Positions 460-17,109 of a stretch of DNA of 64,000 nt are shown one piece after another. Under the pieces are notes generated by a model. It searched no databases. It worked only from the letters and a program-made list of their open reading frames with translations, and was not told the DNA's origin. A program made the translations under genes and the position numbers. Where the stretch lies: positions 148,501 through 212,500 of the forward strand of contig CAUYUJ010019281.1 of the NCBI GenBank assembly GCA_963575745.1, in the 5' to 3' direction. The DNA is from Prorocentrum cordatum. Its lineage: Eukaryota; Sar; Dinophyceae; Prorocentrales; Prorocentraceae. Within the stretch, counting starts at the first letter, position 1. Every line of letters begins with the position of its first letter.

Positions 460-659
460 AGCTCTGGTCTGGTTGGTCTGGTTGGTCTGGTTTGAGCTTA
501 TTCTTGCAGCCTTAGCTTGGTGCAGGAATGGTGTTGGGGAGGTCCTGCGAGGCAGCACCAACCACCACCACCACCGAAATGCAGTTTTTTTGCATTGCAT
601 TGTTTTGCTTTGCAGTTTCTTTTGCATTGCATTTTCTGTTTTGCATCTTGTCTGGTTGG
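460..659 (+). repeat. Left fragment of ~190-bp tandem array
   Basis: One unit of the repeat that continues at 17110-17735. It opens with TCTGGTTGG-type 9-mers, then a TTTGAGCTT box, a GCAGCCTTAGCTT box, a GGCGAGGCAG/CCAACCACCACC box and a T-rich GCATTGCA tail. The same boxes occur in the same order at 17123, 17312, 17502 and 17694. The array is therefore interrupted by the transposon at 660-17109. Confidence 0.85.
653..659. repeat. Candidate left target-site duplication (TGGTTGG)
   Basis: TGGTTGG directly precedes the left inverted end and recurs at 17110-17116 directly after the right end. It may be a 7-bp target duplication. Because the target is a TCTGGTTGG microrepeat, the match could also pre-exist, with the real duplication being the TA at 660-661 and 17108-17109, as expected for pogo-type transposases. 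Confidence 0.5.
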
Positions 660-688
660 TAATCCAATAGCCCTTATAACGGCGACGA
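660..688 (+). repeat. Left terminal inverted repeat (29 bp)
   Basis: It begins TAATCC, ends GGCGACGA and contains CCCTTATAAC. Compared with the reverse complement of 17081-17109 it differs at two positions (7 and 9). The first two bases, TA, may belong to the target rather than the element. Confidence 0.9.
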
Positions 689-695
689 TGGAACA

Positions 696-762
696 CAGTG
701 CCGGGGAACTGCTTTGAACATCACCAGTCGTTCAAAGCAGTGCCCCGGCACTGCTTTGAACG
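696..762. repeat. Left subterminal palindrome pair
   Basis: A decayed copy (696-719, core CAGTGCCGGGGAACTGC) is followed by an intact 34-bp copy (729-762) with 16-bp arms around a CC centre. The right end has the mirror image pair at 17007-17069, at the same distance from the tip. These are probable transposase or host-factor binding sites, by analogy with subterminal repeats of other DNA transposons; that role is inferred. Confidence 0.85.
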
Positions 763-782
763 ATGCGGAAATGCGATCAGCA

Positions 783-1500
783 GGAGCCTTCGTCTGTTCC
801 TTCTCCTCTTCTCGTCGCTGTATGCTCTTCCTTGTCCTCCCTCCTCCCCCGTTCCCTCTCTAATTAATTACCTCGTTCTCCCAGTCTCACGCGCACTCTT
901 CCTCCCCCCTCTCCTCCTCCTCTTCCTGCTTCTCCTCCTCGTCCTCCTCCTCCTCCGCCTCCTCCCCCTCATTTGTTATATTTCTCCGTCCTTGTCCTCC
1001 TGTCCCCGTTCTCCTTCTCCCTCTCCTCCTCCTCCTCCTCCTCGTCGTCGTCGTCCTCCTCCTCTTCCTCCTCCTCCTCCTCCTCCTCCTCCTCTTCCTC
1101 CTCCTCCTCCTCCTCCTCCTCCTCCTCACCTTCTTCCTCCTCCTCCTCCTCCCCCTTTTCCTCTCCCTCCTCCTCCTCCTCCTCCTCCTCCCCCTTCCCC
1201 CTCTTCCTCCTCTGCTATCACTCCTCCATAATTCCTGTCCGCTCCTCCCCTTCACTGATCTTCCTCTTCGTCATCATCATCCCTTTCGTCGCACGCCTCT
1301 TAATCCTCAATCGGTTCCCAATCTTCTCGACTTTCTTGTCATCCGCGTCCTTGGCTGTTGGAGGGGCCTCAGGAATTCTCAGGGCTCTTGTGTTGCACGC
1401 GAAGGCACACCTCCCAGGAACGCATCATCCTCCTCACATTCACCCTCCTCCTCCTCATCCTCCTCCTCCATGCACGTTCGGCTCAAGCCCGCGCCGACGG
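783..1500 (+). promoter_or_regulatory. Long pyrimidine-rich leader before ORF1
   Basis: About 700 bp are dominated by C and T on the + strand, with a perfect or near-perfect TCC/CCT trinucleotide run at 1019-1200. Similar but shorter tracts precede ORFs 2 to 6. In dinoflagellates a pyrimidine tract followed by AG is the setting for spliced-leader addition, so this is the likely 5' leader or trans-splice region. Proline-, serine- and leucine-repeat open frames across it are by-products of the trinucleotide repeat. Confidence 0.5.
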
Positions 1501-1561
1501 TAGGTTTCACGGCGGTTGGGCGGGCTCGCGCCCGCCTCCGCGGCCTGCAGTCGGGGCAGAG

Positions 1562-2728
1562 ATGCGTGCAGGGTGGGATGACAAAGCGGAAGAGGAAACA
1601 CGGGCCGCAGTTGCGGATTCTTCAAAGAGCAGCGGCGGCGGTTGGGGAACAAGTGGGGGTTGGGGCGGCCGCAGTGGCGGATACGGCGGCGGAGGTGACC
1701 GCAGTGGCGGCTGGGGCGGCGGAGATTCTCTTGGCGGATGGAGAGGAAAAGCGCAGGATGGCGGCGACGGAAGTGACCGCAGTCGCGGATGGGAGGGCGG
1801 CGGATGGGGCGGCAACGGATGCGAGGGTTGGGGAATGGAGGGCGCCCGCTGGTGGGACGACGAGGGTGGCTGGTGGAATGCATGGGAAGGTGGCCGCTCG
1901 AGTGCCTCGGCAGGTTCTCCTGCCGCGGAGCCCGCGGCCGCAACAGCGGCGGGCAAAGGAGGCGGTCCCCTGCTTCCCCCAGGGCGCGAAGAACAAGGCG
2001 CAGTTGCGCTGTTTCAAATTGTGCGCAATGAGCCGCTGCCAATTTTCAAGTTGGAATTCTTCGAGAACTTCAGGGCGAACTGGAACGGCAATTATAAGCA
2101 GCACAACGCGGCCTTGAAGTGGTTCCGAGACGAGTACGAAGACCGAGAAAACCCTTTCGGCAGCCGCACGCCCGTCTTCGGAGGTACCGCAGTTGCGGAG
2201 GAAATTTCGAAGATCCTTAAGTACCGCGCAAAGGGGAAGGCGCAGGACAACAGGGATTGGGACTGGGACCACACTGTCAAAGTGCCGTGGTCTTGGCTGG
2301 AGATGGTCGCGCAGATGGATGGACCTACAATGCTGCGCGTCGTGTGCGGCCCTGACAATGACCGCAGTCGCGGGTTGGTCCGCTGCGAGTGCCGCCCGTG
2401 CCCTAGCAGTCTCGACAACATGAGGCACACGAAAGGGGTGGACAGAGGACAGGCGCAAAGAATCCCTCTGCCCCAGTGGGATTTCGTCCTCATCCGCGAC
2501 GACGGCTCGGGCATTCGCGTCCACCCATCCTGGTCTAGCCCGAAGTTCAACACGTATGAGGTGGAGCCGCACTCGCATCCCGTGCGGGGCCCGAGGGCAG
2601 GTCTCGGCAAGAGCGATGGCCACGGAACGTTCACGTTCTGGAAGATGCTGCACGCCCATCCGAATCCTGGGCGGTTCGACGCGAGCAAGGGGGCGCAGCT
2701 GCAACCGCGGTGGTCCGCGCAGCCTTGA
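1562..2728 (+). CDS. ORF1: Gly/Trp-rich N-terminus plus unknown domain
   Basis: 388 residues from the first ATG in a frame that is open from further upstream but has no earlier ATG. Residues about 20-120 are packed with GW and WG pairs (GGWGG, GWGG, RGWEGG, WWDDEGGWW), then an Ala-rich linker. Residues about 145-388 look like a folded domain with many Trp, Phe and His, and match no family I recognise. Several 12-mers are read as AAVAD, DRSGG, DRSRG and TAVAE. GW/WG-rich regions are known as Argonaute hooks in other proteins; that role here is only a hypothesis. ORF6 ends in a comparable Trp-rich tail. First gene of the one-way set. Confidence 0.6.
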   Translation: MRAGWDDKAEEETRAAVADSSKSSGGGWGTSGGWGGRSGGYGGGGDRSGGWGGGDSLGGWRGKAQDGGDGSDRSRGWEGGGWGGNGCEGWGMEGARWWDDEGGWWNAWEGGRSSASAGSPAAEPAAATAAGKGGGPLLPPGREEQGAVALFQIVRNEPLPIFKLEFFENFRANWNGNYKQHNAALKWFRDEYEDRENPFGSRTPVFGGTAVAEEISKILKYRAKGKAQDNRDWDWDHTVKVPWSWLEMVAQMDGPTMLRVVCGPDNDRSRGLVRCECRPCPSSLDNMRHTKGVDRGQAQRIPLPQWDFVLIRDDGSGIRVHPSWSSPKFNTYEVEPHSHPVRGPRAGLGKSDGHGTFTFWKMLHAHPNPGRFDASKGAQLQPRWSAQP

Positions 2729-3393
2729 CACCGCAGTTGCGGGATTGCGCAGCCATGGAACCGCAGTTGCGGGGACCGATCGCGTGACGCCGCGCTCGTT
2801 TGACTCACTATGCGCGCTTTCGGCCGCAGTTGCGGCGCTGCCTTCTAGCGACTTCATACAGCTTGGCCGCAGTTGCGGCGCTCCCACGACTGACCGCTGT
2901 AATTAGGTGCTTCGGGCGCGCATCACCTCCGTTGAAGCACTCGTGACGTTAATTAGCGCGGCCGCAGTTGCGGAGACAGGTACTTAAACAGATGGATCCG
3001 CAGTTGTTCGTCGTCCTCGTCGCCCCTTCCCCGTCGTCCTCGTCGCAGTCTCCTCCCTCCGCCTTTCCTCCTCGTCGCAGTTCCTTCCGTTGGCCGTAGC
3101 CCGCCTCCGTTGGCCGAGTCATTTCCCGTCGTCCTCGTCGCTTTCCCCCCCGAGGGCCGCAGTTGCGGACTTTGTTGATTCCTCCTCCTCCGTTTCTGCC
3201 CCGTCATCCTCGTCGCAGTCCCCTTGCTCCTTTCACCCTCGTCTGAGCTCTTCGCGCCATCCTCTTCCGTCGCGTCCTCTCCATCCTCCTCTTCGCCTTC
3301 CTCGTCCTCATCCCCGCCGTCTCCCTCGTTGCCCTTCCTCTCCCAAGCCGGCCGCAGTTCCCCCGTCGGACGGGGGCCGCGCGCGGCCACGCC
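2729..3393 (+). other. ORF1-ORF2 spacer with 12-mers and pyrimidine tract
   Basis: It holds six copies of CCGCAGTTGCGG (2731, 2761, 2824, 2867, 2962, 3157), AATTA motifs near 2900-2955, and a C/T-rich stretch from 3001 to 3355 that leads into ORF2. No separate gene is supported. Confidence 0.6.
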
Positions 3394-5220
3394 ATGGACC
3401 CAGGTCGCAAAGCCGAGGTCGACAAGCGGTTCGCCGAGCTGAAGCAGCAACTGCGGGAAAGGTTCGGCCTGCAAGGGGCTGCCGCGGATGCCGCAGTCGC
3501 GGAGCCGACGGAGGACCGCAGTAGCGGAAGCCCCGAGCGACCGCCGCGCGAGGCCTCCCCGCAGTCGTCTAGCTCCTCGCGGGAATATCGGCCGCCGCCG
3601 CCGATAAGCGCTGCGAGTGGGAGCTCTGCTGGTGGGAGGCGCGAAGAGGCGCAGTTGCGCAGGGCGCACTTGACCCCCAAGGCAAAATGGGGGCCTCGGG
3701 CGCAGACGCCGACGAAGCAGCAGGACCAACCAACAGTGACGGGAGCCGCCACCGAGACCGCAGTTGCGGGGGTGGCCGGCGAGCCAGGTGCCGCGCGCGG
3801 CTCATCTGGGAGCAGCGCGCCCTCGGCCGTGCTGCTCGCAGCCGAGTCCAAACGAGGCGCCCAACCCGAAGACGAGGCCGCCTCCCAGGAGAAAGCCGCC
3901 GAGACAACCGCCTCGGCCGATTCGCGGCCGAGGAAAAGGCCGCCTCCCACGGAAGACTCGCCGCTGTCAGAACCGCAGTCGCGGGGTCGCGCGGGGCCTC
4001 CGTCGGAACCGCAGTTGCGGGAAGATGCGGGAGCACCGCGGAAGAAGCAGCGGACCAGGTCCCCTCCAGGGATAAACTACTTTGGGGAACGCCCCAAGTG
4101 GAACGAAGGATTCCTTCGTACAGAAGACGGCAATCGGGTTCCGTCCACCATCGCTTTGGTGTTCAACGTGGTGGTCATCACGAAGGTGGCAACAAAGGAA
4201 GATGTCTTCAGGTGCATCTTGCACCAAACTGCGGCGGTCGTCTTCGTCGTATGGGGCCCCGAGCTGTTCCGCACGGGGAACGTCGAAGGCGCTTGCAGCT
4301 ACGACGTTCGCGTTGGACTCAGGACTGCCGTCGACGACGCTGTCACTTTGAAAAACGCCTCCGTGGAGCCTTACTGGACGACGGTTGCCCTGTTCAGAGA
4401 CACGGGCGTGGTGCTCGTGCGCCCGCACATCATCGCAGAGACCGCAGTTGCGGGTCATGTTGTTGGGGCCACCCACGCCGTCACGATCCTGAGCTTTCGC
4501 CTGAAGGGCTCCGAGATGAATCCTGCCGCGGTGATCCGTTTTGCCGTCGTGTCCAGACACGCAGTCACCGAACGTCTCCAACAGAAGATCACGCAAACAG
4601 AACAAACAGCGTGGCATCCAGCTTTCTTCAAGGACGCGGTTGCTTCCATCCATAAAAATGATGTGCGGTTCTTGTGCGGCCTGTTTGACATCCCGCCTGA
4701 GCAGCTCGCAGCATTTGGCCGCAGTTGCGGAGCCAGCTACACCTGCCCGGTGGGGGTGGTGTTCAGGGCTGGACCCGCCCTGTTCGGAGGCATTGTGGAG
4801 GGCACACGCGTCATGCATCCGAATTACGTCCTCCCCATTGGCCCGTGCGACGTGCGCATTGCGGACTACAACATTGATTTTGCAGGGAGGCCGTCGAAGA
4901 ACGATCCCCAGTGGCTCCCTGATTGGATGCATCGAACAAGCGACTCCATCATCTCTCGGCGCTGGGTCCCAGCGAAGTACATGCCCAAGTGGGAGGATGA
5001 CCCTGACCGCAGTAGCGGAGTCAGAGAAAAGCTCGGCTTGGCAGCGCTGCCCCCAATCGGCAAGGTCATTCAGAAGGAGCTCAACGAGAAGACCTTCAGC
5101 ACGCACTGGTGCGAGGGCATCCACCAAAACATCGTCTTCGTCGGCCACGGACGCGCAAGTCGGGCGAGCAAGCGGAAGCACGAAGAGGCGCGATCTGCCG
5201 CAGTTGCGGACGAGCGGTGA
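3394..5220 (+). CDS. ORF2: degenerate EEP-fold relative of ORF6
   Basis: 608 residues from ATG. Residues 1-225 are charged, Pro/Ser/Arg-rich and probably disordered. Residues about 226-585 can be aligned by eye to ORF6: an internal strand pair (VVFVVW where ORF6 has IIALCE), a loop before a helix, then GLFD at 429-432 where ORF6 has the catalytic GDFN, followed by a QL-containing helix, and a terminal HQNIVFVGH where ORF6 has HFPLVAFTH. The acidic residues expected for an endonuclease/exonuclease/phosphatase are missing, so it would be a pseudo-enzyme, perhaps a partner of ORF6 or a DNA/RNA binder. 12-mers are read as TAVAG, PQLR, RSCG and AAVAD. The gene is real by length and pattern; the homology is my inference. 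Confidence 0.7.
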   Translation: MDPGRKAEVDKRFAELKQQLRERFGLQGAAADAAVAEPTEDRSSGSPERPPREASPQSSSSSREYRPPPPISAASGSSAGGRREEAQLRRAHLTPKAKWGPRAQTPTKQQDQPTVTGAATETAVAGVAGEPGAARGSSGSSAPSAVLLAAESKRGAQPEDEAASQEKAAETTASADSRPRKRPPPTEDSPLSEPQSRGRAGPPSEPQLREDAGAPRKKQRTRSPPGINYFGERPKWNEGFLRTEDGNRVPSTIALVFNVVVITKVATKEDVFRCILHQTAAVVFVVWGPELFRTGNVEGACSYDVRVGLRTAVDDAVTLKNASVEPYWTTVALFRDTGVVLVRPHIIAETAVAGHVVGATHAVTILSFRLKGSEMNPAAVIRFAVVSRHAVTERLQQKITQTEQTAWHPAFFKDAVASIHKNDVRFLCGLFDIPPEQLAAFGRSCGASYTCPVGVVFRAGPALFGGIVEGTRVMHPNYVLPIGPCDVRIADYNIDFAGRPSKNDPQWLPDWMHRTSDSIISRRWVPAKYMPKWEDDPDRSSGVREKLGLAALPPIGKVIQKELNEKTFSTHWCEGIHQNIVFVGHGRASRASKRKHEEARSAAVADER

Positions 5221-5935
5221 GTGCGGCAAGACCGAGGAGCCGCAGTTGCGGAACAGAGCTCGGTACTACTGGGCGCCTGCTGCCTGCGTAGTGCATCCCA
5301 GTGTAGGATAGCCCGCAGTTGCGGTGTTGCGGTTGCGGTGTAGGATAGCCCGCAGTTGCGGGGTTGCGGTTGCGAAGCCGCAGTTGCGGTTGCGTATAAT
5401 AGGAGAGCACGCGGTTGCGAAGCCGCAGTTTGCAATAAGTGTGCGCGCGCTGGGTCATCATCATCGTCGTCGTCCGTCCTCGTCGTCGTCGCTGCCGTCG
5501 TCGTCGTCGCGTCTGTCGTCTGTCGTCAGCAGTCGTCGTCGGTCGTCGTCGTCGTCAAGTCTGTCGTCTGTCGTCAGCAGTCGTCGTCGTCGTCGTCCCT
5601 CCTCCCTCCTCCCTCCTCCCTCCTCCCTCCTCCCTCCTCCCTCCTCGTCCTCCTCCAGGCCGCATCCCCCCGCCACCTCCGTCCTAGCTGTCCTTCCCCT
5701 TCCCCTCCTCGTCCTCCTCCAGCTTGCACCCCCCTCCCTCCTCCAGCCTGCGCCCCCCCCAAGCTCTCGCCCGATATTTTGGATTAAAACTGAGCCTTCA
5801 GTCGTCCGCAGGCATTCGGCTCAGCAGGTCGTTGGGCTCCTGGCACACACGCCTCCACCCTGAGCGACGGACGTCGTGCCATAGTCCGCCATATCGGAGC
5901 TCCGGGCCGCAGTGGCGGACAGCGTCGGCACAGAT
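5221..5935 (+). other. ORF2-ORF3 spacer with 12-mers, TCG runs and pyrimidine tract
   Basis: Copies of CCGCAGTTGCGG lie at 5240, 5313, 5350 and 5378, with GGTTGCGGTTGCG variants between them. A GTCGTCGTC region (5460-5600) and a CCTCCCTCCT run (5596-5650) follow. A GTG-initiated frame begins at 5912, but the first ATG is at 5936. Confidence 0.55.
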
Positions 5936-8362
5936 ATGAACGACAGCGTCGGCACAGATAATGCCGCAGTGGCGGACAAGAAAGCCGCAGTGGCGGACGA
6001 GACAGCCGCAGTTCCAGGCGGAACGCAAGGGATCTTTCAGAGGGCCAACGCCTTGAGGTCTAGATTCAGGACAGGGGACAAGGTGCGCCTCCCTGTGCTC
6101 ATGCTCGCCCCGCACACGGGCAACCGAGGCGGGCACTACCCTCAGCAGGAAAGGGTTCGGGAACTCGCTGTGAAAATCTTCCTGGCTGGATTCACGCAAG
6201 CCGAAGCTGACCACGAAGGTGTCTGCGTTCAGATGTACCCAGCACAAGAGCTGGTGCTGAGAAAAAAGGAGGACCCGAAGTTCCAGACGTACACAGAGTA
6301 CAATCTGGAAAAAGCGACCGGCCACCTCGCTGCGTGCTTCGACCGCAGTTGCGGAACAGACGTTGCGTATGGGACGTGTTCGCACTCCCACTTGTGCCTC
6401 GTGTTGCGGGCGTGCGCCCTGGGAGCCAAGTGGCCCATCCCCCAAGGCATGGAGTTCACGGAGGACGAGAGCGCGAGGCTGAAGCGCGTGCTCGATAAGG
6501 ACGGCAATCTCGACATGGCCGCAGTGGCGGAACATGACCCTGTCGCTAAGAAACTCGTGCAGGGGGGTATGCTCATGGAAGTGCTTAGCTGGAAAATCAT
6601 GGACGAGGAACCCACTGGTGCTTCGCTCATCAGCCAGTCCCTCAATAAAGGAGCCGATTTTGCGTTGCGAACGACTGAACTCACCGCGCTCCGTGTTCTG
6701 TGCAAGGCTGTTGACGCGGAGCTGCACGCCGCAGTTGCGGATCAGGTTGCCTTTGAAAAGGTCAAGCTCTCCGTCATGCACGAACTCGATCGAGTCGTTC
6801 AGGACCCAGACTTCATTGAGCTGTTCTCGTTCGTTGTTGGGCTCGGGAGCACGAAAGCGCAGTTCATCCCCTTGCTGCTCCAGTTCTGCGAGGTCTACGT
6901 GAACTCCAGGAGAAGGGCCCTTCGGCTCGGTGCCTTCGGGGCAGCCAGCGAGCTTCCCGACGAAGTGCCGTGGGTCAAGGTTGCCGTGGTGATGCGATGC
7001 TACAGGAACGCGCCTGCGAGGAAGAGGGGCGTTGACACTCCTGTGTGGTGCCCTGACCCAGAACAATCGTGGAAGAAGAAGGAGTTCCGAGACTTCCTCA
7101 TCGACATGAACTCGGCTCTCCGTTTGTACTTGTTCACGCTGAGCAAGGCCATCGACGGCATGGGCCCTGAGAAGGCGATCGAGTTCAAGGCGAACCTGTG
7201 CATACTGACCGCAGACGGCTTCATGCAGTACCTGAAGGACACCCACGTCAAGGAACGAAGTATCCCAGGACATCGTCAGGCGCTCCTCCGCGCTTGCGCG
7301 GAGGCCACGGGGAAGGTGGAGCCGAAGTCCAATCGGGACGCCCTTGAGAAGGCCCTCGGCGAAGTGGGAGTCCGAGGCGGGAAGCCCGATTGGTTCGATT
7401 TCAACGCGTTGCCGCGCCCAGAACCGAATGAGCCCGCAGTGGCGGGGAAGACAAAGGCTTCCGCAGAGGAGCACGAGTTGATGCCGACGGTCATTTCCTT
7501 TGACCCCACGACGCAATTACCAACGAACCACCAGCGCAGCAGGGACACGACGGCCATTCCACGCGGATCCTTCCCTTTGCCAATCGCCGAATGGAGGCGT
7601 TCAGCGGCAGCGAAGGAGCTGGGGCGGGAGCCTGCTTTGGTCAGCGCAGTGTTGCTGTGCCTTTGGGCGCGCCACATGTCCGCAGTTGCGGAAGCGCAAG
7701 TAGAGGTGTTGCAAGACGCTGACACAGAGAAACGCACCGTCAAGGCAACCGCTGCAAACGACGAAAAATGCATCGAGTTGTGGCCGTGCGTCCCAAAGGC
7801 ATCCAAGGTGCACGCCGCAAGCACGCACCCCGAGAGGGTGGCCGTGCAAGTCTGGGTGAAAGGAGATCCAAATGGGGCCACGCCCACGACCTTCTACTTG
7901 CACCCCGAGTTCAAGCCGCCTGCGGACAAGACGCCCGCCGACGTGGCTGACCACGATGTGCGGTTGAGAGCATGGAAGTGGGATGCGCAAGAGACAATGC
8001 ACGTCTTCTGGGCAGTCAACAGAGTCACGGAACAGGAGATCCAGCAGAGAAACAGCCGTAATGAAAGCGCAGTTGCGCGCATCAACATGGAGCTGGAGAC
8101 GAAAGAATTGGCGGTGTGCGTGCCTGGGACAGGCGGGGTCGTGCTCGCCGTGAATGTCCCTGTGCTGGTGAATACCACGGCCGTGAAGAAAGGAGAAGAG
8201 CTCCTGTGGGAGGCGAGACCCAAAACCGCACCGAAGAAGAAGGCGGCCGAGGAGACGTGGAAGACGGACGCGGCCAAGAGGGCCAAAGGGAAGCCTTCGG
8301 GCCAGCCCGCGCCGAAGAAATCGAAGAAAGGGTTCGACGAAAGCGGGAAGATGTCGCTCTAA
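5936..8362 (+). CDS. ORF3: large unknown protein of the element
   Basis: 808 residues from the first ATG. The first 25 residues contain two tandem 12-mer-derived AAVAD peptides. A Cys/His cluster (CFDRSCG, GTCSHSHLC; residues about 134-160) could bind metal. The middle is helical-looking and unassigned. Near residues 745-760 the text NTTAVKKGEELLW resembles the end of a SET domain or its dinoflagellate relatives, but the catalytic NHS-type motif is not visible, so methyltransferase activity is not claimed. The last 50 residues are Lys-rich (PKKK, KKSKKG), a likely nuclear signal. The gene ends just before the central palindrome region. Confidence 0.75.
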   Translation: MNDSVGTDNAAVADKKAAVADETAAVPGGTQGIFQRANALRSRFRTGDKVRLPVLMLAPHTGNRGGHYPQQERVRELAVKIFLAGFTQAEADHEGVCVQMYPAQELVLRKKEDPKFQTYTEYNLEKATGHLAACFDRSCGTDVAYGTCSHSHLCLVLRACALGAKWPIPQGMEFTEDESARLKRVLDKDGNLDMAAVAEHDPVAKKLVQGGMLMEVLSWKIMDEEPTGASLISQSLNKGADFALRTTELTALRVLCKAVDAELHAAVADQVAFEKVKLSVMHELDRVVQDPDFIELFSFVVGLGSTKAQFIPLLLQFCEVYVNSRRRALRLGAFGAASELPDEVPWVKVAVVMRCYRNAPARKRGVDTPVWCPDPEQSWKKKEFRDFLIDMNSALRLYLFTLSKAIDGMGPEKAIEFKANLCILTADGFMQYLKDTHVKERSIPGHRQALLRACAEATGKVEPKSNRDALEKALGEVGVRGGKPDWFDFNALPRPEPNEPAVAGKTKASAEEHELMPTVISFDPTTQLPTNHQRSRDTTAIPRGSFPLPIAEWRRSAAAKELGREPALVSAVLLCLWARHMSAVAEAQVEVLQDADTEKRTVKATAANDEKCIELWPCVPKASKVHAASTHPERVAVQVWVKGDPNGATPTTFYLHPEFKPPADKTPADVADHDVRLRAWKWDAQETMHVFWAVNRVTEQEIQQRNSRNESAVARINMELETKELAVCVPGTGGVVLAVNVPVLVNTTAVKKGEELLWEARPKTAPKKKAAEETWKTDAAKRAKGKPSGQPAPKKSKKGFDESGKMSL

Positions 8363-8680
8363 TTAATTAAGAAGCCGCAGTGGCGGCAGTCAGGGCGGCT
8401 TGCTCGCGTGACCGCAGTTGCGGGCAACAGGCCGAAGGGGGGGGCGCACGCGTGACCGCTGTTGCGGAGCGCTCGTGTAGTTTGCAGTGTCACTGCTTCT
8501 GTTAGCTGATGCCGCAGTAGCGGACCGCTGACGATCGAGCACGGAGGTTCGAAACGGACCTCCTCCCTCCCTTCTCCCTCTCCTCCCTCGCCCTTCCTCC
8601 ACTTCCTCCCTCTCTCCTCCTCCTTTCTCCCCTTCCTCCCAAGTTGGAAGCCGAAACTACTCATTTCCTCACTCCCTCCC
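8363..8680 (+). other. ORF3-ORF4 spacer, first part
   Basis: TTAATTAA follows the ORF3 stop. 12-mers lie at 8375, 8412 and 8512. A C/T-rich tract occupies 8560-8640 and ends in CCCAAG. No gene is supported. Confidence 0.5.
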
Positions 8681-8682
8681 TC

Positions 8683-8845
8683 CCTCCCTGGAGGCCCTGG
8701 AGGGCCTCCGCCCTGGAGGGCCTGGAGGGCCCTGGAGGCCCTGGAGGGCCTCCCTGGAGGCCCTGGAGGGCCTCCCTGGAGGCCCTGGAGGGCCTGGAGG
8801 GCCCTGGGCTGAGGGCGGAGGCCCTGGAGGGCCTCCGCCCTCAGA
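8683..8845. repeat. GGAGGCCCTGGAGGGCC minisatellite
   Basis: Tandem, self-complementary units of CCCTGGAGGGCCTCC run up to the central palindrome, and related units continue to about 8994 on the other side. The tract is capable of many alternative hairpins. Confidence 0.8.
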
Positions 8846-8949
8846 ATGCTTCAAAGCAGTGCCGCGGCACTGCTTTGAAGCATCCAGATGCTTCAAAGCA
8901 GTGCCGCGGCACTGCTTTGAAGCATTCTGAGGGCGGAGGCCCTCCAGGG
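8822..8949. repeat. Central 128-bp palindrome
   Basis: Arms 8822-8883 and 8888-8949 are perfect inverted copies around CCAG. Each arm itself contains a perfect 38-bp palindrome with the core TTCAAAGCAGTGCC, the same core as the subterminal palindromes. The centre (8885.5) is within about 1 bp of the midpoint of 660-17109. It splits the element into two halves of about 8.2 kb, each with three genes. Confidence 0.88.
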
Positions 8950-9087
8950 AGGCGCGAGGATCGCAGGGACCGAGGGAGGCCCTCCAGGGAGGCGTTCAGC
9001 TCGCCATCTGGCTCAACCGCGCGCGGCCCCACTGCCCGCACCCCCGCCTTGCCCGCAGTTGCGGCTGTGTCCAGCGCAGTAGCACAC

Positions 9088-10086
9088 ATGCCGACTTCGA
9101 GCGAATGGAGCCCTGTGTGCGTTGAGAAGGTCTTGTGCATCCGTGGAGGTTGGCTTGCGCAGACCACCCCCATCCCCGAAAAGGATGTCAAGGTGCTCCA
9201 CGCATGGCCCCTCGGAGAGATAACTTTCGTGCACGTGAACATGCAAAAGGCTTGGCTGCTCAAGGTGTGCGCCAAAGGTAAACCGACCGCAGGGGCCTTG
9301 AAGGCCTCCAAGGCCTGGGACGCGCTGAAGAAAGAAGTCGCGAAGCAGGGCGGCGCCGCAGTTGCGGACGATGAGAGCGACGGCGACGCGGGGGACGAAG
9401 CAGATGACCCCATGTCGGCCCTGGTCAGCTCCACGGACGCCACGAAGAAGCAGGCAGCGACCCCGACCAGCGCCAAGAAGCAGAAGACTGGAACGCGTGC
9501 GGCGACTACTGGCCTGCCCAGGGGCGAGGCCGTGGAGTCGGCCATAGCCACTGTGCACTCTGTACAGATGCCCGCAAAGAGCCCCATGAAGTTTCCGCAC
9601 GACACGGCCGTTCGAAACGTGCGGGTGGCCAGCTTCAAGCGGAGGACGTTGTGGCTGGACGCTGCAGACCTTGGGTGGCTGATCGACATGATCGTGGACG
9701 ACGTGAGCCTCGGCGGTGTCCCCGACATCGGCGACGGCGACAAGGACGAGGCCGCAGTGGCGGACAGGGACTGGGCAACGGCGGTTGACCCTGCCACCCC
9801 GCTGGCGAAGCAAAAGGAGGTCGACCCCCCCGTGGCGCAGGGGAGCGGCTCTGGCTTCACCGTCGTTTGGGACTTCAAGGGCGCTTGGGTCGCGACCATC
9901 ACGCGAGAGTGTGCCAACAAGGGCAAAAGGATCGAGATGGATGTGAAGAAACTTACAAAGAAGAAGTGGCAGTCGGCGCAGTCGGTGAAGGGCTACGACT
10001 ACGAGTGGGAGGGCATGACGCAGCACCAGCGCAAGCAAGCGGCTCTGGATTACCTCGAGCTCCAAATCCCCAGTCTGTTCGACTGA
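9088..10086 (+). CDS. ORF4: unknown 332-aa protein
   Basis: The frame is open from 8644, but the first ATG is at 9088, after the palindromic repeats, so this start is chosen. Residues 1-85 look globular (Trp- and Val-rich, with VCVEKVLCIRGGW). An acidic stretch with AAVADDESDGD follows, then a Lys/Thr-rich linker (KKQ, KKQK) and a second folded part with FKRRTLWLD, VVWDFKGAW and a C-terminal KKLTKKKW basic patch. No known family. Two 12-mers fall in frame as AAVAD. The basic patches suggest nucleic-acid contact, by inference only. Confidence 0.65.
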   Translation: MPTSSEWSPVCVEKVLCIRGGWLAQTTPIPEKDVKVLHAWPLGEITFVHVNMQKAWLLKVCAKGKPTAGALKASKAWDALKKEVAKQGGAAVADDESDGDAGDEADDPMSALVSSTDATKKQAATPTSAKKQKTGTRAATTGLPRGEAVESAIATVHSVQMPAKSPMKFPHDTAVRNVRVASFKRRTLWLDAADLGWLIDMIVDDVSLGGVPDIGDGDKDEAAVADRDWATAVDPATPLAKQKEVDPPVAQGSGSGFTVVWDFKGAWVATITRECANKGKRIEMDVKKLTKKKWQSAQSVKGYDYEWEGMTQHQRKQAALDYLELQIPSLFD

Positions 10087-10461
10087 GGCCCGAAGCCGTA
10101 TGGGCCGCAGTTGCGGTGGGGCTACTGAGTGCCCGCAGTTGCGGGGTGGCTGGGTGCGCGTGAACACGCGGAGGGCGAGGCGGTGTGAGGAGGCAGGCGG
10201 AAGGTTTAGGGTGTTCCACGGGTGCACGCCTTAGTGCGCCAACTTGTGTGGGCGAGCGTTTTTCTTAGAGAAGCATGGAGTGAAGCATCGAAACCCTGTG
10301 CGCGCGATGATTGGGGCTTCCGCGCGGGCGTTGTTGAAAAGTACCTCCTTCTTCGCCCCTCCGCATCGTCTTCAGTTGCTCCTCCCTCCTCCCCTCCCTC
10401 TTCCTAGTTCTGTAGCCCGCAGCCGAGTGCCCGGCCCGAGTCGTTCGCCACGCGACCGCTC
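10087..10461 (+). promoter_or_regulatory. ORF4-ORF5 spacer with probable trans-splice acceptor
   Basis: Two 12-mers (10105, 10133) come just after ORF4. A pyrimidine tract at 10379-10407 ends in TTCCTAG, followed by TTCTGTAGCCCGCAG and the ORF5 ATG about 50 bp later. A C/T tract plus AG shortly upstream of a start codon is what spliced-leader addition needs; use of this AG is inferred. Confidence 0.45.
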
Positions 10462-13400
10462 ATGGATGTTCCCGTGGGGCGGACATGGTATGGCGAGGAG
10501 GACGGAACGCATTTCGAGGTGGAGTGGCTCCATTACGACAGCGGCTGCGCACCGAGGAAAACGAAGTATGGCACCACTGGGCTCGCCAACATCTTGGGCC
10601 GCAGTAGCGGCGTTCCGTGCCCCAAGAAGATAAAGGTGCACGCATGTGCGGATTTTCCGTGCCTAGCGAAGTGGCCCGCGTCGCAGTACGGCCTTGTTGA
10701 GCCGCCTCGCTTTCATTTGCGGCCGTCTGCTTGGCGACCGGGCGCGACGCCACCCCCCGCAGTTGCGGCTCCAGGCGGCACCGCAGTTGCGGCTCCCTCG
10801 GCCCCTGCACACATAGCACCAGCAACACCAGCAGAACTCGCAGCTCCTGCGCAAGAAGGACACGCAGCTCCAGCACCAGAAGCACCCGCAGAACCCAAAC
10901 CTCCAGCAGCCCCTGTGCCCGAAGCACCCGCAGCAGCAGTCCCTCCAGCTCCTCCAGCTCAAGTGCACGCAACACCAGACCCGCCTGCTGCGCAGGAGAC
11001 CGCAATTGCGGTTGAAGCTCCTGAGGGAGTGGAAGCGGACAAAGACACACCACTTCCAGCACGCTTGCCACCAGCGCGGCCGCTGCCAGAGAACTGGTCG
11101 AAGACGCAGGTCGCATTCTTCCCGTGCCCAGACCCAAAGGCTGCAGCACGAGTTGCGGCGCCTGTTGGCGACGCCTTGCGGCCACGAGTCGCGGCGCCAC
11201 CCCTGGCGCCAGAGAAAGGTGTACCTGTGGAAGACGCGCCAAAGATCCAGGCCGCAGTGGCGGCGACGGTGCCTGACGTCGTGATGGCTCTCCTGAGGCA
11301 GATTCTGTCCGAGAATTCCTACATAGGGTATTCAGCTTTCATGCTGTTTGCCTTGCGGTTCGGGCGTCGACCTTACGTGTGGGAAGGCGAGAACCGCAAG
11401 GACCTCCTTGACTTCTACATGCCTTGGGCAAAGGAGAAGTGCACTGAGCCATGCGCCGTCGACGGCGTGGCGTGCGTACTCGCCGCTGCTGAGGATCTGT
11501 TCGGGGAATGGACAACGGTGGAACTCAGGCCCGTGACTCCCGAGAACCCTCTCCATGAGGTGCGCCACTGGGTGGCCGCAGTTGCGGTGGGTGGCGTGTG
11601 CTCTGAGGGGGCGGACGCGTTGAACAGGTTCTACGGTCCTCTGGGACAATGGGTCCTAGGGACTGTTTGCGATGGAAACTGCGGCATTGACCTTATGGCG
11701 ATGATGTTGCAGAAACCGCAAAATGCCGAGACGCGCAAATGGCTTCGGGAGGAACTGTACGATTTCGGGGTGCGCCGCTGGGACGAACCGTGGTTGCACG
11801 ACATGCTCGTTGTCACGCAGGAACTAACCTTGGAGGAGGTGCGGGCGTACCGCAGTTGCGGGGCCAGCGGCCCTGCTGGACCCATGGTCCTGCACGACTC
11901 CGAGGGCGAGGGCGAACCAGCAGAGGCGCCGAGAGAGGCGAGCGCGCCACGCCCCGCTCTCATGGCGGCGTTAGAGTGGCAGACGGGCGTGCAGGACATG
12001 GGTATATTGCTTGCCATGGCTGAGGCTATGCCCGAGGCGTTGCAGGAGGAGCAGATCAGGGCGCACGCACTGGCCAGCGCACGCCCAAAACCCGAAGTTG
12101 CGGAACAGAAGCGGCGCGTGTGCCCGCACATGCTCAGAGACCGCGAACTGGTTTGCAAAGAACTGGAGGCGCACGCACGCAGTTGTGGTTGGATGGGCGA
12201 GGGCGTTCTGCCACGGAATTCAATCGCGTCTTTTTGCGGGCGGTTCACGTGGCCGAAGGGCATGGGGGTCGTCCAGCAGCGCCAGGCCGTCTCCAAGTGG
12301 TTTCAAAACTGGCGCACACAAGGTGGACATGGCACGGCGGGCGTGCATGGCCGACGCCGCGCGCGGGGCAACCAAGGGCGCCCGAACAAGGCTCCATGGC
12401 TGGAAGCCGCTCTGTACGAGTGGTGGTCCCACATGAGGTACTCCGTGGACTGGAAGGCGGTGGCCAAGCGAACCGCAGTTGCGGAGGAGAGGCCCAAGAT
12501 GTTGGCCAGGTTCTCCCAATCCCTGCTGGTTACGAAGGCGAAGCAACTCGTCGCGGACTACTGCGTGGAGACAATGAAGCGGGGAGGCAAACCGATGGTG
12601 CCGCAGTTGCGGCCTCGGTGGTGGGTGAAGTGGCGGCGCTCCTACGGCCTGAGCATGAAGAAGCCGAACCGCAAGTACAAGGTGCCAAAATGGTTGCTCC
12701 AATCTCGTTTTGAGACTATGATCTTGAACGTGGCCAGGGTCCGCGCAGCTGCAGAGGAGCTTCTGGGGTACGACCCGCACATCCTGAACTGGGACCAGTC
12801 GCCCTTTCACCACAACGAGTCGTCGTCGGCCTCGAAGCCGACCTTGGCTGTGAAGGGTGGCATTGTCCCGCTTGTCGAGGCGCATGACGACAGCAGGGCT
12901 CGGTGGACAGCGAACCTGACGGTGTCGAGCGACGCGGAGGACATCCGCAGTTGCGGACCACCGCCGGCGGAGCTAATGTTCAAGGGGGGATCTGTCATCG
13001 CTGAGGGCTTGGCCGCACATGCCCGCAGTCGCGGCTATCCGTCTTGGGTGAGCACGGCGACGTCCGAGAAGGGGTCCTACCGCGCAGACGACGTTGTATC
13101 ATTCTTGCAGCGGCACTTGCGGGCCTGGCCCGACGACCCGCAGTTGCGGGGAAAGTGGCGCATCCTCATGGCCGACGACCATTCCCCGCACAAAGCAGAC
13201 GCTGTGCGGAGACTCGCCTGGCAGCGCGGCTACGTGCTGATCATTCACGGCGGGGGGGCGACCGCAGTTGCGCAGCCCGTGGACACGGACTTGAACCAGC
13301 ACGTGAAGCGCCGGTACATTGCCCTCGAGACCAAAGCGCTGGTGCAGCAAATGGCGTTGGGGAAGCACGTGCCGCAGTTGCGGCGTTCCGATTGCGCCGA

Positions 13401-14577
13401 CTTGATGCTGTCAGTGTTGGAGAATGTGCAGTTGCACTTGGACGCCGCGAAAGGTTTCCTGAAAGTGGGAATTCGAGCGCCCTTCGACAAGTCAGGAGAT
13501 CTCGAGATTTGCCGAGAGGCGGCGGAACTCTGGGAAGCAGGGGGGCTGCGAGCAAAAGTGGACACCGCAGTCGCGGAGGTGAGGGAAGAATGCGAGCAGA
13601 AACGTTTGAAATGGTCCTACAATGACGTGCTGCGTCTCATACACGAATACGAGAAACACGACGCCACAGATTCCGTGTTGGAGAAGCTCGGCGACGAAGC
13701 GCTAGGCCAGGAGCCAGGCCACGAGGAGGGCGATGAGGAGGGCGGGGAGGAGGAGGAGGAGGAGGTGCACGAGGAGCACGAGGAGGACGAAGAGCAAGAG
13801 GAGGCCTCGTGGGCCGAGGCTCTTGCGGAACAGTGCGATGCCGCAGTTGCGGCACCTGGGCCTCAAGGATCCTCGGTATCCATGGACTGCGTGGTCGACG
13901 CAGAGGCGGCCGAGCAGGTGGCAGTGGCGACGTCCTTGGCAGAAACGCTCCGCGAGGCGGAAGATATGCTGCGCCAAGTGGGCATGGAGAAACTAGCGCA
14001 GGATTGCCGACAGCAACGACACAAACAAAAGAAGCGGTTGAGAGAGCTGGCGCGGGAGGACAACGAGGTCCTACGAGCGTTGACTGCCCAGCGAGACCAC
14101 GAAGCCGCAGTGGTGGCGAAAAAGCGGCGCCTGGCTCTGGAAGCGAACGACAGGACGAAGGCGTTGCACGATCTCAAGAAGCAGATTCGAGAGGCCGAGG
14201 CCGCCTTGAGGGCAAAGAAGGAGGCCGCAGTTGCGGTGGAAACGGCTTTGGCTAACAAACACGCCCTAGCGCAGTGGAATCCCGAGGAGTTCAAGATCAA
14301 GAAAAACAGGATGGCAGCTCTGGATCGCCTGGCTCGCGGAAAAGGCGTCCTCTCAGACGAGCAGAGGGGGGAGTGGGCATGGTTCAAGACGCATTGGGAC
14401 GAGGAGATGTGCAAGCAGCACAAGGAGCAATGGCCGCTCACGTTTGCTGGGTGGCTGCAAAAAGTCGCGAACGACGCGGCGTCTGGGAACCGTTCGGCGC
14501 TGTCGCAGTTCGTGCATTCGGAAACAGTGAGAACCCTGGGAGGGCAAATGGCGCTGGTAATCCCAGCCCTAGCGTGA
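10462..14577 (+). CDS. ORF5: pogo/CENP-B-like DDE transposase, multi-domain
   Basis: 1371 residues from ATG. Residues 1-88 are a small Cys/Trp domain; 90-250 are Pro/Ala-rich. Residues about 265-480 contain DGNC at 404-407, the nucleophile motif of OTU-type cysteine proteases, though the matching His was not located. Residues about 685-742 resemble a CENP-B/Tc5 HTH (LVTKAKQLV, RWWVKWRRSYGLS). The DDE core has NWDQSP (D778), ADDHSPH (D905) and QPVDTDLN (D941), a DD35D arrangement. After it come an acidic run (about 1085-1115), a long coiled coil (about 1160-1265) and a C-terminal domain. A 12-mer remnant (TAVAQ) lies immediately before the third Asp motif. It is the likely enzyme that moves 660-17109. 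The transposase call is firm; OTU is tentative. Confidence 0.85.
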   Translation: MDVPVGRTWYGEEDGTHFEVEWLHYDSGCAPRKTKYGTTGLANILGRSSGVPCPKKIKVHACADFPCLAKWPASQYGLVEPPRFHLRPSAWRPGATPPPAVAAPGGTAVAAPSAPAHIAPATPAELAAPAQEGHAAPAPEAPAEPKPPAAPVPEAPAAAVPPAPPAQVHATPDPPAAQETAIAVEAPEGVEADKDTPLPARLPPARPLPENWSKTQVAFFPCPDPKAAARVAAPVGDALRPRVAAPPLAPEKGVPVEDAPKIQAAVAATVPDVVMALLRQILSENSYIGYSAFMLFALRFGRRPYVWEGENRKDLLDFYMPWAKEKCTEPCAVDGVACVLAAAEDLFGEWTTVELRPVTPENPLHEVRHWVAAVAVGGVCSEGADALNRFYGPLGQWVLGTVCDGNCGIDLMAMMLQKPQNAETRKWLREELYDFGVRRWDEPWLHDMLVVTQELTLEEVRAYRSCGASGPAGPMVLHDSEGEGEPAEAPREASAPRPALMAALEWQTGVQDMGILLAMAEAMPEALQEEQIRAHALASARPKPEVAEQKRRVCPHMLRDRELVCKELEAHARSCGWMGEGVLPRNSIASFCGRFTWPKGMGVVQQRQAVSKWFQNWRTQGGHGTAGVHGRRRARGNQGRPNKAPWLEAALYEWWSHMRYSVDWKAVAKRTAVAEERPKMLARFSQSLLVTKAKQLVADYCVETMKRGGKPMVPQLRPRWWVKWRRSYGLSMKKPNRKYKVPKWLLQSRFETMILNVARVRAAAEELLGYDPHILNWDQSPFHHNESSSASKPTLAVKGGIVPLVEAHDDSRARWTANLTVSSDAEDIRSCGPPPAELMFKGGSVIAEGLAAHARSRGYPSWVSTATSEKGSYRADDVVSFLQRHLRAWPDDPQLRGKWRILMADDHSPHKADAVRRLAWQRGYVLIIHGGGATAVAQPVDTDLNQHVKRRYIALETKALVQQMALGKHVPQLRRSDCADLMLSVLENVQLHLDAAKGFLKVGIRAPFDKSGDLEICREAAELWEAGGLRAKVDTAVAEVREECEQKRLKWSYNDVLRLIHEYEKHDATDSVLEKLGDEALGQEPGHEEGDEEGGEEEEEEVHEEHEEDEEQEEASWAEALAEQCDAAVAAPGPQGSSVSMDCVVDAEAAEQVAVATSLAETLREAEDMLRQVGMEKLAQDCRQQRHKQKKRLRELAREDNEVLRALTAQRDHEAAVVAKKRRLALEANDRTKALHDLKKQIREAEAALRAKKEAAVAVETALANKHALAQWNPEEFKIKKNRMAALDRLARGKGVLSDEQRGEWAWFKTHWDEEMCKQHKEQWPLTFAGWLQKVANDAASGNRSALSQFVHSETVRTLGGQMALVIPALA

Positions 14578-14859
14578 TGCAGGCCGCAGTTGCGGACCCA
14601 CAGGAAGTCCAGAGGGAAGTTGTTTTTCCAAGCGGCTCCCGCGCGGGCAGGAGATGAGGCAAAACCGCAGTTGCGGTCTTCCTGCTGCTGTGAAAATAAT
14701 CCTTTCACAGTCCCTTGCAATCGTCGCCCTCCTTCTGCTTCTCCGCCAGTCCATTTGTTGTTCTTTCGGTTCCTTTGAGTCCTCGCCCTCCTTCTGCCAC
14801 TCCTCGAATCCTCTTTGTCTCCTCCCTCCATCCGACCCCATGCCCATTCACGATCCATT
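14578..14859 (+). other. ORF5-ORF6 spacer
   Basis: 12-mers lie at 14584 and 14665. A moderately C/T-rich stretch (14700-14830) leads into the spliced-leader-like sequence at 14860. No gene is supported. Confidence 0.5.
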
Positions 14860-14881
14860 TCCGTAGCCACCGTGGCTCGAG
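14860..14881 (+). promoter_or_regulatory. Spliced-leader relic upstream of ORF6
   Basis: TCCGTAGCCA, three mismatched bases, then TGGCTC, G for A, AG: 18 of 22 positions match the dinoflagellate spliced leader as I know it. It lies 24 bp before the ORF6 start codon, where a trans-spliced leader would sit in mRNA. The simplest reading is that this gene copy passed through a trans-spliced mRNA before entering the element. Confidence 0.65.
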
Positions 14882-14904
14882 GTGGCGCACGCGAAGACGC
14901 AAGC

Positions 14905-16890
14905 ATGTGGCCGCCCGCGCGCCCGAGCGCATCCTCAGGGAGTATGGACCGTGGACCTCGATTCGCCAGAACGGTGTTCATCCACAACGCTGAGGAGGAG
15001 GAGGGAGGCAAAGACGAGGAAGCCGCAGTTGCGGATGATGACGACGACCAGCGGACGCAAGATGGCGACAGCACCGTCGCGTCCTCGGCTGCCTCCGCTG
15101 ACGAGGCTGAGTCCCGGGGAGGTGCGGGAGCCGCAGTTGCGGCAGCACATGACTCCTACATGCCGAGAGTGTTGTCGTCGCGGAGACCCTGGAAACGGGT
15201 GCCCATCATCGAGACAAGCAATCTGTCGGAAAAACAAAGAGCTCTTGTCGACGCATGGGAGGAGAAAACGGAGTTCGAAGCGGGACGGGTCGGCTTCTAC
15301 GTGGCCAACTTCGGAGGGACTGCAGCTAGACCCACGCAACGCGCGGACGAGTGGGCGCAGCTCCGCGCGAACCCTGCCCAGATCATCGCCCTCTGCGAGT
15401 GCGACGACGAGACCTGCGCGGTACTCAGTGGGGAGCACGACGCGAGGGACAGTGCAGCCGCAGTTGCGGACGATAGGTTTCGGAGTCGGACTCAATACAA
15501 CTACCTGTGCGTTAAGGGCGGCGAGCCATCAGGGACCCTCCTTGTTGGCATGAGGGACCGCAGTGGCGGCCACATTGAACACGTAGACTTTGCGAGACTC
15601 TTCCACAAGCAGGAGAAGTCCAAAACGAAGAAGAAGAAGAAACAGTCCGCAGTTGCGGAGGCTCCTGCGCCAAAGCTGCACAACAAGTACTCCAGGGCGA
15701 TGGTGGTGCGCGTCCACCTGGACCAGGCCGTGACCCATTTGGGGGGCTCCTTCAACGTCATGGCGGTGCACGTCCACCACAGCTTGGCCAACCAAGACTG
15801 GGGCGTCACGAAGCTCCATGAGTTCTACAACTGGTTCGTCGCCTACGTCAGGGAATGGGACGTGAAGGTCTGCATGGGGGACTTCAACATGTGCATGTTC
15901 CAGCTTGTGTCCTGGTGCCGCAATTGCGGCCTGACTGTGGACGTCGCCGCGTGGACCCCCTGGAAGACAGCAGGCGGCCAGCCCAGGGCAGACAGCATGG
16001 CGATTTTGTTCATAAACTGTCCTGGGCAGTACAAGCTTCACCATGGCCTGAGTGTTCTGCACGACCGTGAGGGCGGATTCTTGACGACCCAGCATGATCC
16101 GTCTTTCCCTGTCTTCGACTACACGAATGGCCCTGGGAAGATGCTTCAGACTTACGTGCCCAAGGCTGAGCCCGTTGAAAACAAGATGCGCGCCTTCCTG
16201 ACGCCATCTGGCGAATCCTTGACCGCAGTTGCGGAGTTCGAGCAAAGGATGGCGCGCAGGGAACGCGACGATTGGGTGCGCCATCCCTTCAGAGTGAAGC
16301 AGGGCAACCTCGACGACAAGATATGGCATGGCGCCTTCGGCAGGGCGAGGCACGGAGCGCACTTCCCTCTGGTGGCTTTCACGCACAATACGTGCCGCAG
16401 GTCACCTGAAAGACTCGCCGCGAGGTTGGAACGCAGGAAGGGCGGCAGGAAGGGCGGCAAGAAGGGCGGCAAGAAGGGCAGCTACGCGGACACCGCAGTT
16501 GCGGGGAAGGGCGTCCGACCCCAGATGGGAACCGCAGTTGCGGGGAGAGACGCTGGGGCTGAGCGAGCTGGGAACACGCCACCGCCGCAAGCTGCCAACG
16601 GCGACGATGCGACCCCTTCTTGTGCCGCAGTGGCGGCTGGGTCCTGGGACGCCAGCGGCAGCGGCGCATGGGAGGCGCGCAGTCCCGCCACGAGATGGCA
16701 GGGCTGGTCCTGGTGGGACTGGAGCTCGAGCGAATGGGGCGCTGATGGCGCGCAGTGGTGGCCCTCTGATCATGCCGCAGTTGCGGACAATGCCCCTGAG
16801 GGCTCGCCTCCTCAGCGTGAAGTCGAGTGGGGCTCGAGCGGGCGACCTGCCGAGCGCCCTCCGTGGAGCTTCGAGGGGCAGCGTTGGTGA
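14905..16890 (+). CDS. ORF6: endonuclease/exonuclease/phosphatase-fold protein
   Basis: 661 residues from the first ATG in the frame, which directly follows the spliced-leader relic. EEP hallmarks in order: VANFGG, IIALCE (E165), FNVMAVHVHH, KVCMGDFNM (D326, N328), then a late AHFPLVAF that resembles the family's SDH motif but lacks the Asp. EEP enzymes cut or trim nucleic acids, or act as phosphatases, using a metal. As the second enzyme of the element it could nick DNA or process ends. After the domain come Lys/Gly repeats (KGGRKGGKKGG) and a Trp/Ser-rich tail (WQGWSWWDW, QWWPSD). 12-mers add AAVAD and TAVAG peptides, including inside the domain. Catalytic competence is uncertain because of the altered last motif. 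Confidence 0.8.
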   Translation: MWPPARPSASSGSMDRGPRFARTVFIHNAEEEEGGKDEEAAVADDDDDQRTQDGDSTVASSAASADEAESRGGAGAAVAAAHDSYMPRVLSSRRPWKRVPIIETSNLSEKQRALVDAWEEKTEFEAGRVGFYVANFGGTAARPTQRADEWAQLRANPAQIIALCECDDETCAVLSGEHDARDSAAAVADDRFRSRTQYNYLCVKGGEPSGTLLVGMRDRSGGHIEHVDFARLFHKQEKSKTKKKKKQSAVAEAPAPKLHNKYSRAMVVRVHLDQAVTHLGGSFNVMAVHVHHSLANQDWGVTKLHEFYNWFVAYVREWDVKVCMGDFNMCMFQLVSWCRNCGLTVDVAAWTPWKTAGGQPRADSMAILFINCPGQYKLHHGLSVLHDREGGFLTTQHDPSFPVFDYTNGPGKMLQTYVPKAEPVENKMRAFLTPSGESLTAVAEFEQRMARRERDDWVRHPFRVKQGNLDDKIWHGAFGRARHGAHFPLVAFTHNTCRRSPERLAARLERRKGGRKGGKKGGKKGSYADTAVAGKGVRPQMGTAVAGRDAGAERAGNTPPPQAANGDDATPSCAAVAAGSWDASGSGAWEARSPATRWQGWSWWDWSSSEWGADGAQWWPSDHAAVADNAPEGSPPQREVEWGSSGRPAERPPWSFEGQRW

Positions 16891-17006
16891 TGGCCGCAGT
16901 TGCGGGCAAGTGGAGCATGATGTTGATTGCCGCAGTTGCGGACAGTGTACGCTGGAAAAATCATCATCATCATCAATCATAATCATCATCATATCATCAT
17001 ATCATA
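16891..17006 (+). other. Right subterminal spacer
   Basis: Two final 12-mers (16894, 16930) are followed by an ATC/ATCAT-rich stretch at 16962-17006 just inside the right palindromes. Confidence 0.6.
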
Positions 17007-17069
17007 CGTTCAAAGCAGTGCCGGGGCACTGCTTTGAACGCGTTCAAAGCAGTGCCGGGGCACTGCTTT
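17007..17069. repeat. Right subterminal palindrome pair
   Basis: An intact 34-bp palindrome (17007-17040) with a GG centre is followed directly by a second copy missing its last few bases (17041-17069). This is the mirror image of the left pair. Confidence 0.85.
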
Positions 17070-17080
17070 CGATCGTCGCC

Positions 17081-17109
17081 TCGTCGCCGTTATAAGGGCT
17101 TTCGGATTA
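17081..17109 (-). repeat. Right terminal inverted repeat (29 bp)
   Basis: The reverse complement begins TAATCC and ends GGCGACGA, matching 660-688 at 27 of 29 positions. TGGTTGG follows at 17110-17116. Confidence 0.9.

Follow-up and report, generated by a model that had tools for sequence, protein, structure and literature searches.

A one-stranded 12-mer dispersed through the genes of a large mariner-fold transposon in Prorocentrum cordatum: a possible transcript tag with lineage dialects

Introduction

What keeps a 12-nucleotide word, repeated dozens of times in a single orientation, within the bounds of one mobile element? The question is raised by a 64,000-bp stretch of Prorocentrum cordatum DNA (the window, meaning the whole stretch analysed), which carries a 16.4-kb mariner-fold transposon with a TA site, inverted ends, and six co-directional open reading frames (ORFs), and, dispersed through this element, the 12-mer CCGCAGTNGCGG, hereafter the tag. 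The reading favoured here, with a probability of about 0.45, is that the 12-mer labels the element's transcripts on their sense strand as a lineage-specific mark, whose hairpin form a putative element protein would bind. A literature search, mainly of non-subscription papers, retrieved no report of the tag, nor of such a self-recognition code in a eukaryotic transposon. The available part of the P. cordatum genome paper mentions introner elements and does not mention the tag word (PMC10666404).

Strand and spread of the word in the window

An exact-match scan of both strands of the window located 70 copies of CCGCAGTNGCGG, 70/70 on the + strand, from the first at 1605–1616 to the last at 16930–16941. 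Outside 1605–16941, the window, including 47 kb of flanking DNA, contains no copy. The first-pass annotation had described about 70 copies in one orientation, never inverted, confined to the element at roughly one per 220 bp, and these statements hold: the mean gap between tags is 222 bp, and the minus strand of the window carries no exact inverted copy, only sites with a single mismatch (1938, 3445, and two self-symmetric CCGCAATTGCGG at 11000 and 15918). The shuffle comparison proposed there gives a mean of 0.03 copies expected by chance in the window (100 dinucleotide shuffles), and the similar density in unrelated genes that would have marked a genome-wide feature is not seen in the flanking DNA. 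Just six single-mismatch sites exist on the + strand of the element; hence, the word is nearly all-or-none. Position 8 of the 12-mer, previously taken as free, is T in 17 of the 20 spacer copies.

Position of the tags relative to genes

Two sets of ORF starts were used, and the spacer figures vary with the choice. With the longest ORFs, the coding part amounts to 13,284 bp with 50 tags, and 20 tags lie outside it. Counted from in-frame ATG starts instead, the coding part measures 12,522 bp with 49 tags, the internal spacers (2,807 bp) contain 19, and 2 follow ORF6. The tags therefore occupy genes and spacers alike, as first described, with the spacers being denser. Within the six ORFs, the three frames carry 5, 32, and 13 tags. 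In all six genes, the first + strand tag past the stop codon lies within 2–19 nt of it, at 2731..2742 for ORF1 (offset 2 nt), 5240..5251 for ORF2 (19 nt), 8375..8386 for ORF3 (12 nt), 10105..10116 for ORF4 (18 nt), 14584..14595 for ORF5 (6 nt), and 16894..16905 for ORF6 (3 nt). Furthermore, 15 of 18 internal-spacer tags are located in the first half of their own spacer (mean relative position, p 6e-5 against uniform placement). The second spacer halves consist of 62–76% C+T and may resemble trans-splicing acceptor zones; most tags avoid these pyrimidine-rich zones before genes, and the tag at 5907 stops 17 nt short of an ATG and that at 9053 23 nt short. The left 943 bp of the element (662..1604, with 80% C+T over 662–1357) contains no tags. 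Tag placement thus matches message anatomy better than element anatomy.

Selection on nucleotides

Among the 153 homologues of ORF5, the transposase gene, 120 were listed and analysed; the near-identical P0001 is omitted where n = 119, and homologue tags are read from the protein, except in two distant relatives available as DNA (L043 and L044, below). Sense tag peptides in the 120 proteins number 653, 255, and 49 in the three frames against 13.7, 9.9, and 3.4 in shuffled proteins (14–48 fold), and antisense tag peptides 17, 7, and 27 against 8.2, 2.1, and 12.1 (2–3 fold), the count of 27 including sense tags, as PQLR reads alike in sense and antisense. In RSxG peptides without P0001, x is C, R, G, or S, the residues of NGC codons, in 251/294 cases, with 22% predicted from composition; counting each alignment column and residue once, the figure is 65/98. 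Immediately before RS[CRGS]G, the residues K, Q, E, M, and W occur in 2/251 cases, compared with 78/384 before other RSx (p 3.7e-22); these residues are forbidden because the codon preceding the tag must end in C. The residue x of xAVAy is one of T, A, S, and P in 690/851 cases and the residue y one of D, E, A, G, and V in 754/851, compared with 0.19–0.63 for x and 0.29–0.81 for y in eight control triplets, among which VAV and AAV, themselves overlapping the tag, score highest. The same trend is present in 15 proteins of the ORF3 and ORF6 families, and in the window ORFs 50 of 51 tag-encodable peptides are the exact 12-mer. Judged from the encoded peptides, the tag is family-wide across the transposase homologues. 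Since the neighbouring residues obey the DNA word, the nucleotides are evidently under selection; base composition as the cause is ruled out by the shuffles and the forbidden-residue test.

Orthologues of ORF3, ORF5, and ORF6 share 79%, 81%, and 66% identity with the window proteins and probably lie on one contig, because the longest contig given for each measures 11,273 bp. In these orthologues, 24 of 27 alignable tags keep all full codons. Identity amounts to 77/84 for tag residues, 271/366 for the eight flanking residues per side, and 1598/2041 for the remainder. The ORF5 orthologue reads through the position of the window stop and encodes RSCG near its C-terminus, which fits conservation of the post-stop tag. 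Turnover was followed in 1042 homologue pairs of 50–97% identity, which contain 431 distinct sites tagged in only one of the two proteins. Of these, 355 are gap-free, 44 have a gap in the tagged protein, and 32 have a gap in the untagged partner, including just 5/431 with a partner gap of 4–5 residues. Tags are thus gained and lost mainly by substitution and rarely by 12-bp insertion, and such insertion as the general origin of the copies is not supported. In some pairs of 80–95% identity, several residues change inside one tag, which single steps explain poorly.

Dialects in distant relatives

A scan of genome contigs returned 34 stretches, of which two were confirmed as ORF5 relatives, L043 (NHDG01000044.1, 7,733 bp, best segment 36% identical) and L044 (JAIXPV010000615.1, 3,246 bp, 26% identity). 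Both are filed as bacterial metagenome-assembled genomes and are probably misbinned eukaryotic DNA. L043 contains one copy of CCGCAGTNGCGG and 21 copies of CCGCAATNACGG, 21/21 in sense; three of these follow the stop at 435 (442, 481, and 504) and four the stop at 5832 (5889, 6061, 6081, and 6112). L044 contains no CCGCAGTNGCGG and five copies of CCRCGGTTGYGG, 5/5 in sense. As both words were picked from those enriched in the respective contigs, their shuffle tests are post hoc. Neither CCGCAATNACGG nor CCRCGGTTGYGG exists in the window, and 42 viral loci totalling 378,769 bp contain no CCGCAATNACGG. All three words fit the common form CCRCRRTNRYGG, of which they are lineage dialects. In the window, CCRCRRTNRYGG adds only one minus site, located outside the element, and three + sites, at 14105 and at the self-symmetric 11000 and 15918. 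Peptides of the L043 word are also present in P0051. P0005, considered as a further dialect for its three RNCG peptides, was dropped, as one RNCG follows Met and does not fit.

A transposon end in L043 agrees at 18/20 positions, the best of 41 shuffles reaching 16/20. At 6376–6410, this end is directly followed by TCCAATGAG, which resembles the beginning of a further end, and tags of the same dialect continue beyond; the site is perhaps a head-to-tail junction of two elements. The similarity of ORF4 and ORF6 to other L043 ORFs is weak, and gene-order conservation is not claimed. In viral contigs, no relatives were confirmed. Two closely spaced copies were present in 42 viral loci, mostly as one pair 21 bp apart, and two pieces of one contig carry a 24-bp array; these were judged coding repeats.

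Evidence for a hairpin

In isolation, the words fold as hairpins on either strand, including as single-stranded DNA. In L043, the five stem pairs are formed in 94.6% of cells, and in two of them both partners vary. On 15 distinct sequences, covariation scores 0.206 compared with 0.102, a level matched in 1/500 shuffles. This stem covariation suggests a hairpin in L043. Outermost stem pairs in the window are C-G in 70 cases, G-C in 3, and C-C in 1, and the other pairs are near-invariant. The pairs tallied for L043 and L044 contain five G-T and one A-C wobbles and four other mismatches, a slight lean toward the sense strand. Iron-responsive and AGNN loops were set aside, as the dialect loops differ from both.

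Proposed mechanism and rival explanations

In the favoured reading, the 12-mer would be the local dialect of CCRCRRTNRYGG, kept by nucleotide selection in large mariner-fold DNA transposons of protists and read in one polarity within the transcribed part of the genes, that is, the coding sequence and the post-stop stretch. The sense strand of the transcript would expose a short hairpin with a loop of the R-R-U-N type, to whose many copies an element protein would bind, marking the RNA as the element's own; the marked RNA may then be protected, exported, or assembled into a particle. The RNA substrate, the encoding of the reader by the element, and the effect of the mark are inferences. A broader form, held slightly more tentatively, is that a family of giant eukaryotic DNA transposons marks its own mRNAs with dozens of copies of one hairpin word per lineage, with a matching reader for each dialect, as a self/non-self code that tolerated substitutions have written through the genes and that would serve in protection, export, or packaging of the RNA.

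Several results weigh against this mechanism. With 50-nt flanks, the stem probability of the window tags is 0.369 compared with 0.40 for shuffled flanks (antisense, 0.407 compared with 0.48), and for the 21 non-coding window tags it is 0.229 compared with 0.399 (antisense, 0.339 compared with 0.508). With 25-nt flanks, the value is about equal to that of shuffled flanks (0.523 and 0.513), and in L043 the two are likewise about equal (0.633 and 0.617). The flanking bases do not lengthen the window stem, with 22/70 paired at the first position and 17.2 expected, and the pair C4–A9 of the L043 12-mer is non-standard. Folding predicted in context therefore does not support a stable local RNA hairpin; the word may instead adopt a protein-held form or act in the non-template strand. 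In addition, the tags at 2962 and 3157 lie deep in a spacer, all element genes point one way such that the polarity of the element and that of transcription are not separable, and no RNA-binding domain was recognised in any ORF, with ORF1, ORF2, and ORF4 examined as single sequences. An RNA hairpin tag had been among the roles first suggested; the sense-only strand, the location in ORFs and after stops, and the covariation in L043 support it in part, whereas the in-context RNA folding does not.

The two main rivals are a polar DNA site and a co-transcriptional hairpin. The absence of a folding signal in RNA context would suit a polar DNA site read in the duplex, in the manner of Chi or KOPS, which guides recombination, repair, or segregation and thereby favours tagged copies. 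Strict polarity, the nearly all-or-none word, and the near-palindromic half-sites are likewise consistent with it, but tags that hug stops and mostly miss the zones before genes are not needed for a site acting on whole-element DNA, and the stem covariation in L043 also argues against it; we regard this explanation as unlikely. A hairpin acting co-transcriptionally would account for sense-only tags confined to the presumed transcribed region, could form in single-stranded DNA, and would agree with the covariation without requiring stable RNA folding. The ops element acts once or a few times per operon, in contrast to a tag every ~220 bp, and no elongation-factor-like protein was recognised among the ORFs, which leaves a co-transcriptional role doubtful.

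The first-pass annotation had also raised a selfish micro-repeat spread by gene conversion. Its spread by insertion is not supported, given the rarity of tag-sized gaps; a functionless micro-repeat that overwrites 12-nt blocks through conversion or templated copying would explain the few single-mismatch sites and the several changes inside one tag at 80–95% identity, but it is improbable in view of the 24/27 tags kept, the higher identity of tag residues than of their flanks, the post-stop placement, and the rarity of 12-bp insertions. That the word belongs to the host genome at large seems very improbable: the DNA count bearing on this covers the 64,000-bp window, its flanks hold no copy, and the peptides track the protein families of the element. 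Finally, AVA[DE] and RSCG peptides recur as expected of a repeat selected at the protein level, but copies in all three frames and in spacers, together with neighbouring residues that obey the DNA word, rule such a repeat out for practical purposes.

If the favoured reading of a self-recognition code is true, it could account for a multi-gene element telling its own transcripts from those made by a very large host genome. Such a code would be open to test through the dialects, as swapping the words of two lineages should abolish or divert recognition. Under any mechanism, the word acts strongly enough to shape protein sequence across entire families, which makes it a clear example of selection on nucleotides leaving its imprint in proteins. 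Meanwhile, the tag is a simple signature for finding such elements in plankton data.

Comparison with known systems

In Neisseriaceae, the uptake sequence dialects consist of a 10–12-nt word that occurs in many copies within and between genes, is maintained by substitution, and has related variants in related lineages (PMC3630211). The tag is likewise a short word enriched in genes and spacers with lineage dialects, but it belongs to a eukaryotic mobile element, is tied to transcription units, and has no uptake known for it. DNA uptake sequences use both orientations, whereas the tag and its dialects keep to one strand (70/70, 21/21, and 5/5). Uptake-sequence dialects are the closest analogy; the self-recognition mark first proposed gains lineage dialects, and recognition itself would follow by analogy. 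In RNA viruses, dispersed packaging signals consist, in the passages available, of many short stem-loops with a common loop along the coding sense RNA (PMC6281560, PMC7793301). The tag resembles them in its many short sense-strand words, candidate stem-loops, along coding sequence, but it belongs to a DNA transposon, is near-invariant, and lacks support for an RNA hairpin in context; no coat protein was recognised among the element ORFs. The ops/RfaH system uses a sense-strand hairpin word in a transcribed region (PMC5995543), as the tag may do. The tag differs from it in copy number and distribution, and its reader protein is putative only.

En/Spm is a DNA transposon with repeated subterminal 12-mers, and binding sites of this type had been suggested for the tag. 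The likeness is limited to a repeated 12-mer in a DNA transposon: the tags are in one orientation, fill genes, and leave the 943 bp at the left end empty instead of clustering subterminally there. The suggestion is therefore not supported. In Rickettsia-type palindromic elements, copies arise by insertion, whereas the tags arise mainly without it. Rfam 15 gave no match at the gathering score in 600–17200. The transposase has the known mariner-like fold; the tag itself, as tested, is distinct from En/Spm sites, inserted palindromes, and Rfam families.

The carrier element and its neighbourhood

The element, initially given too short an extent, spans ~662–17107 by its inverted ends and the flanking TA. 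The left terminal inverted repeat (TAATCCAATAGCCCTTATAACGGCGACGA) lies at 660..689 on the + strand with TA at 660–661, and the right one at 17081..17109 on the minus strand with TA at 17108–17109. The flanks joined across the element align to neighbouring repeat units, with TA bordering both inverted ends. ORF5 (10462..14577, 15 tags) encodes a DDE/D transposase of mariner-like catalytic fold with three invariant aspartates; its alignment against PDB sequences gave no match. The terminal inverted repeats and TA target duplication of Tc1/mariner-pogo are both present. Mariner elements measure ~1.2–1.3 kb with one ORF in the consulted part of the source (PMC7325037). The present element shares with Tc1/mariner and pogo the transposase fold, the three aspartates, and TA at both ends, but differs in its 16.4 kb, six ORFs, and dispersed tags.

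The other five ORFs are also on the + strand. ORF2 (3394..5220) contains 9 tags, and ORF3 (5912..8362, first in-frame ATG 5936) contains 7. The ORF3 product is predicted with a mean predicted local distance difference test score (pLDDT) of 61 and gave no structure match at E <= 0.001; weak matches to SET domains were disregarded. Two of its 15 database matches are short stretches in Prorocentrum cordatum proteins: the same piece of ~30 residues, encoded at ~7200–7330, occurs in two unrelated proteins of this species (P0138 and P0139). ORF6 (14815..16890, first in-frame ATG 14905, 10 tags) perhaps encodes an endonuclease/exonuclease/phosphatase-type protein, from one homologue below the curated cut-off. 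By inspection, Gly/Trp-rich stretches are encoded at ~1640–1900, in the N-terminal part of ORF1 (1358..2728, first in-frame ATG 1562, 6 tags), and at ~16620–16880 in ORF6. Such composition is familiar from Argonaute-binding proteins, and these parts are the sole hint at RNA biology.

Outside the element, ORFs at 30325–34169 resemble by eye a reverse transcriptase, a tyrosine recombinase, and a DNA methyltransferase, as might befit a DIRS-like element; they carry no tags and have no Pfam match at E <= 0.1. Within the element, a palindrome with the half TTCAAAGCAGTGCC is situated just inside both ends (690–765 and 17009–17070). The same palindrome recurs at 8822–8949 inside a perfect 63-bp inverted repeat, before the first in-frame ATG (9088) of ORF4 (8644..10086), which holds 3 tags in its long form and 2 from the ATG on.

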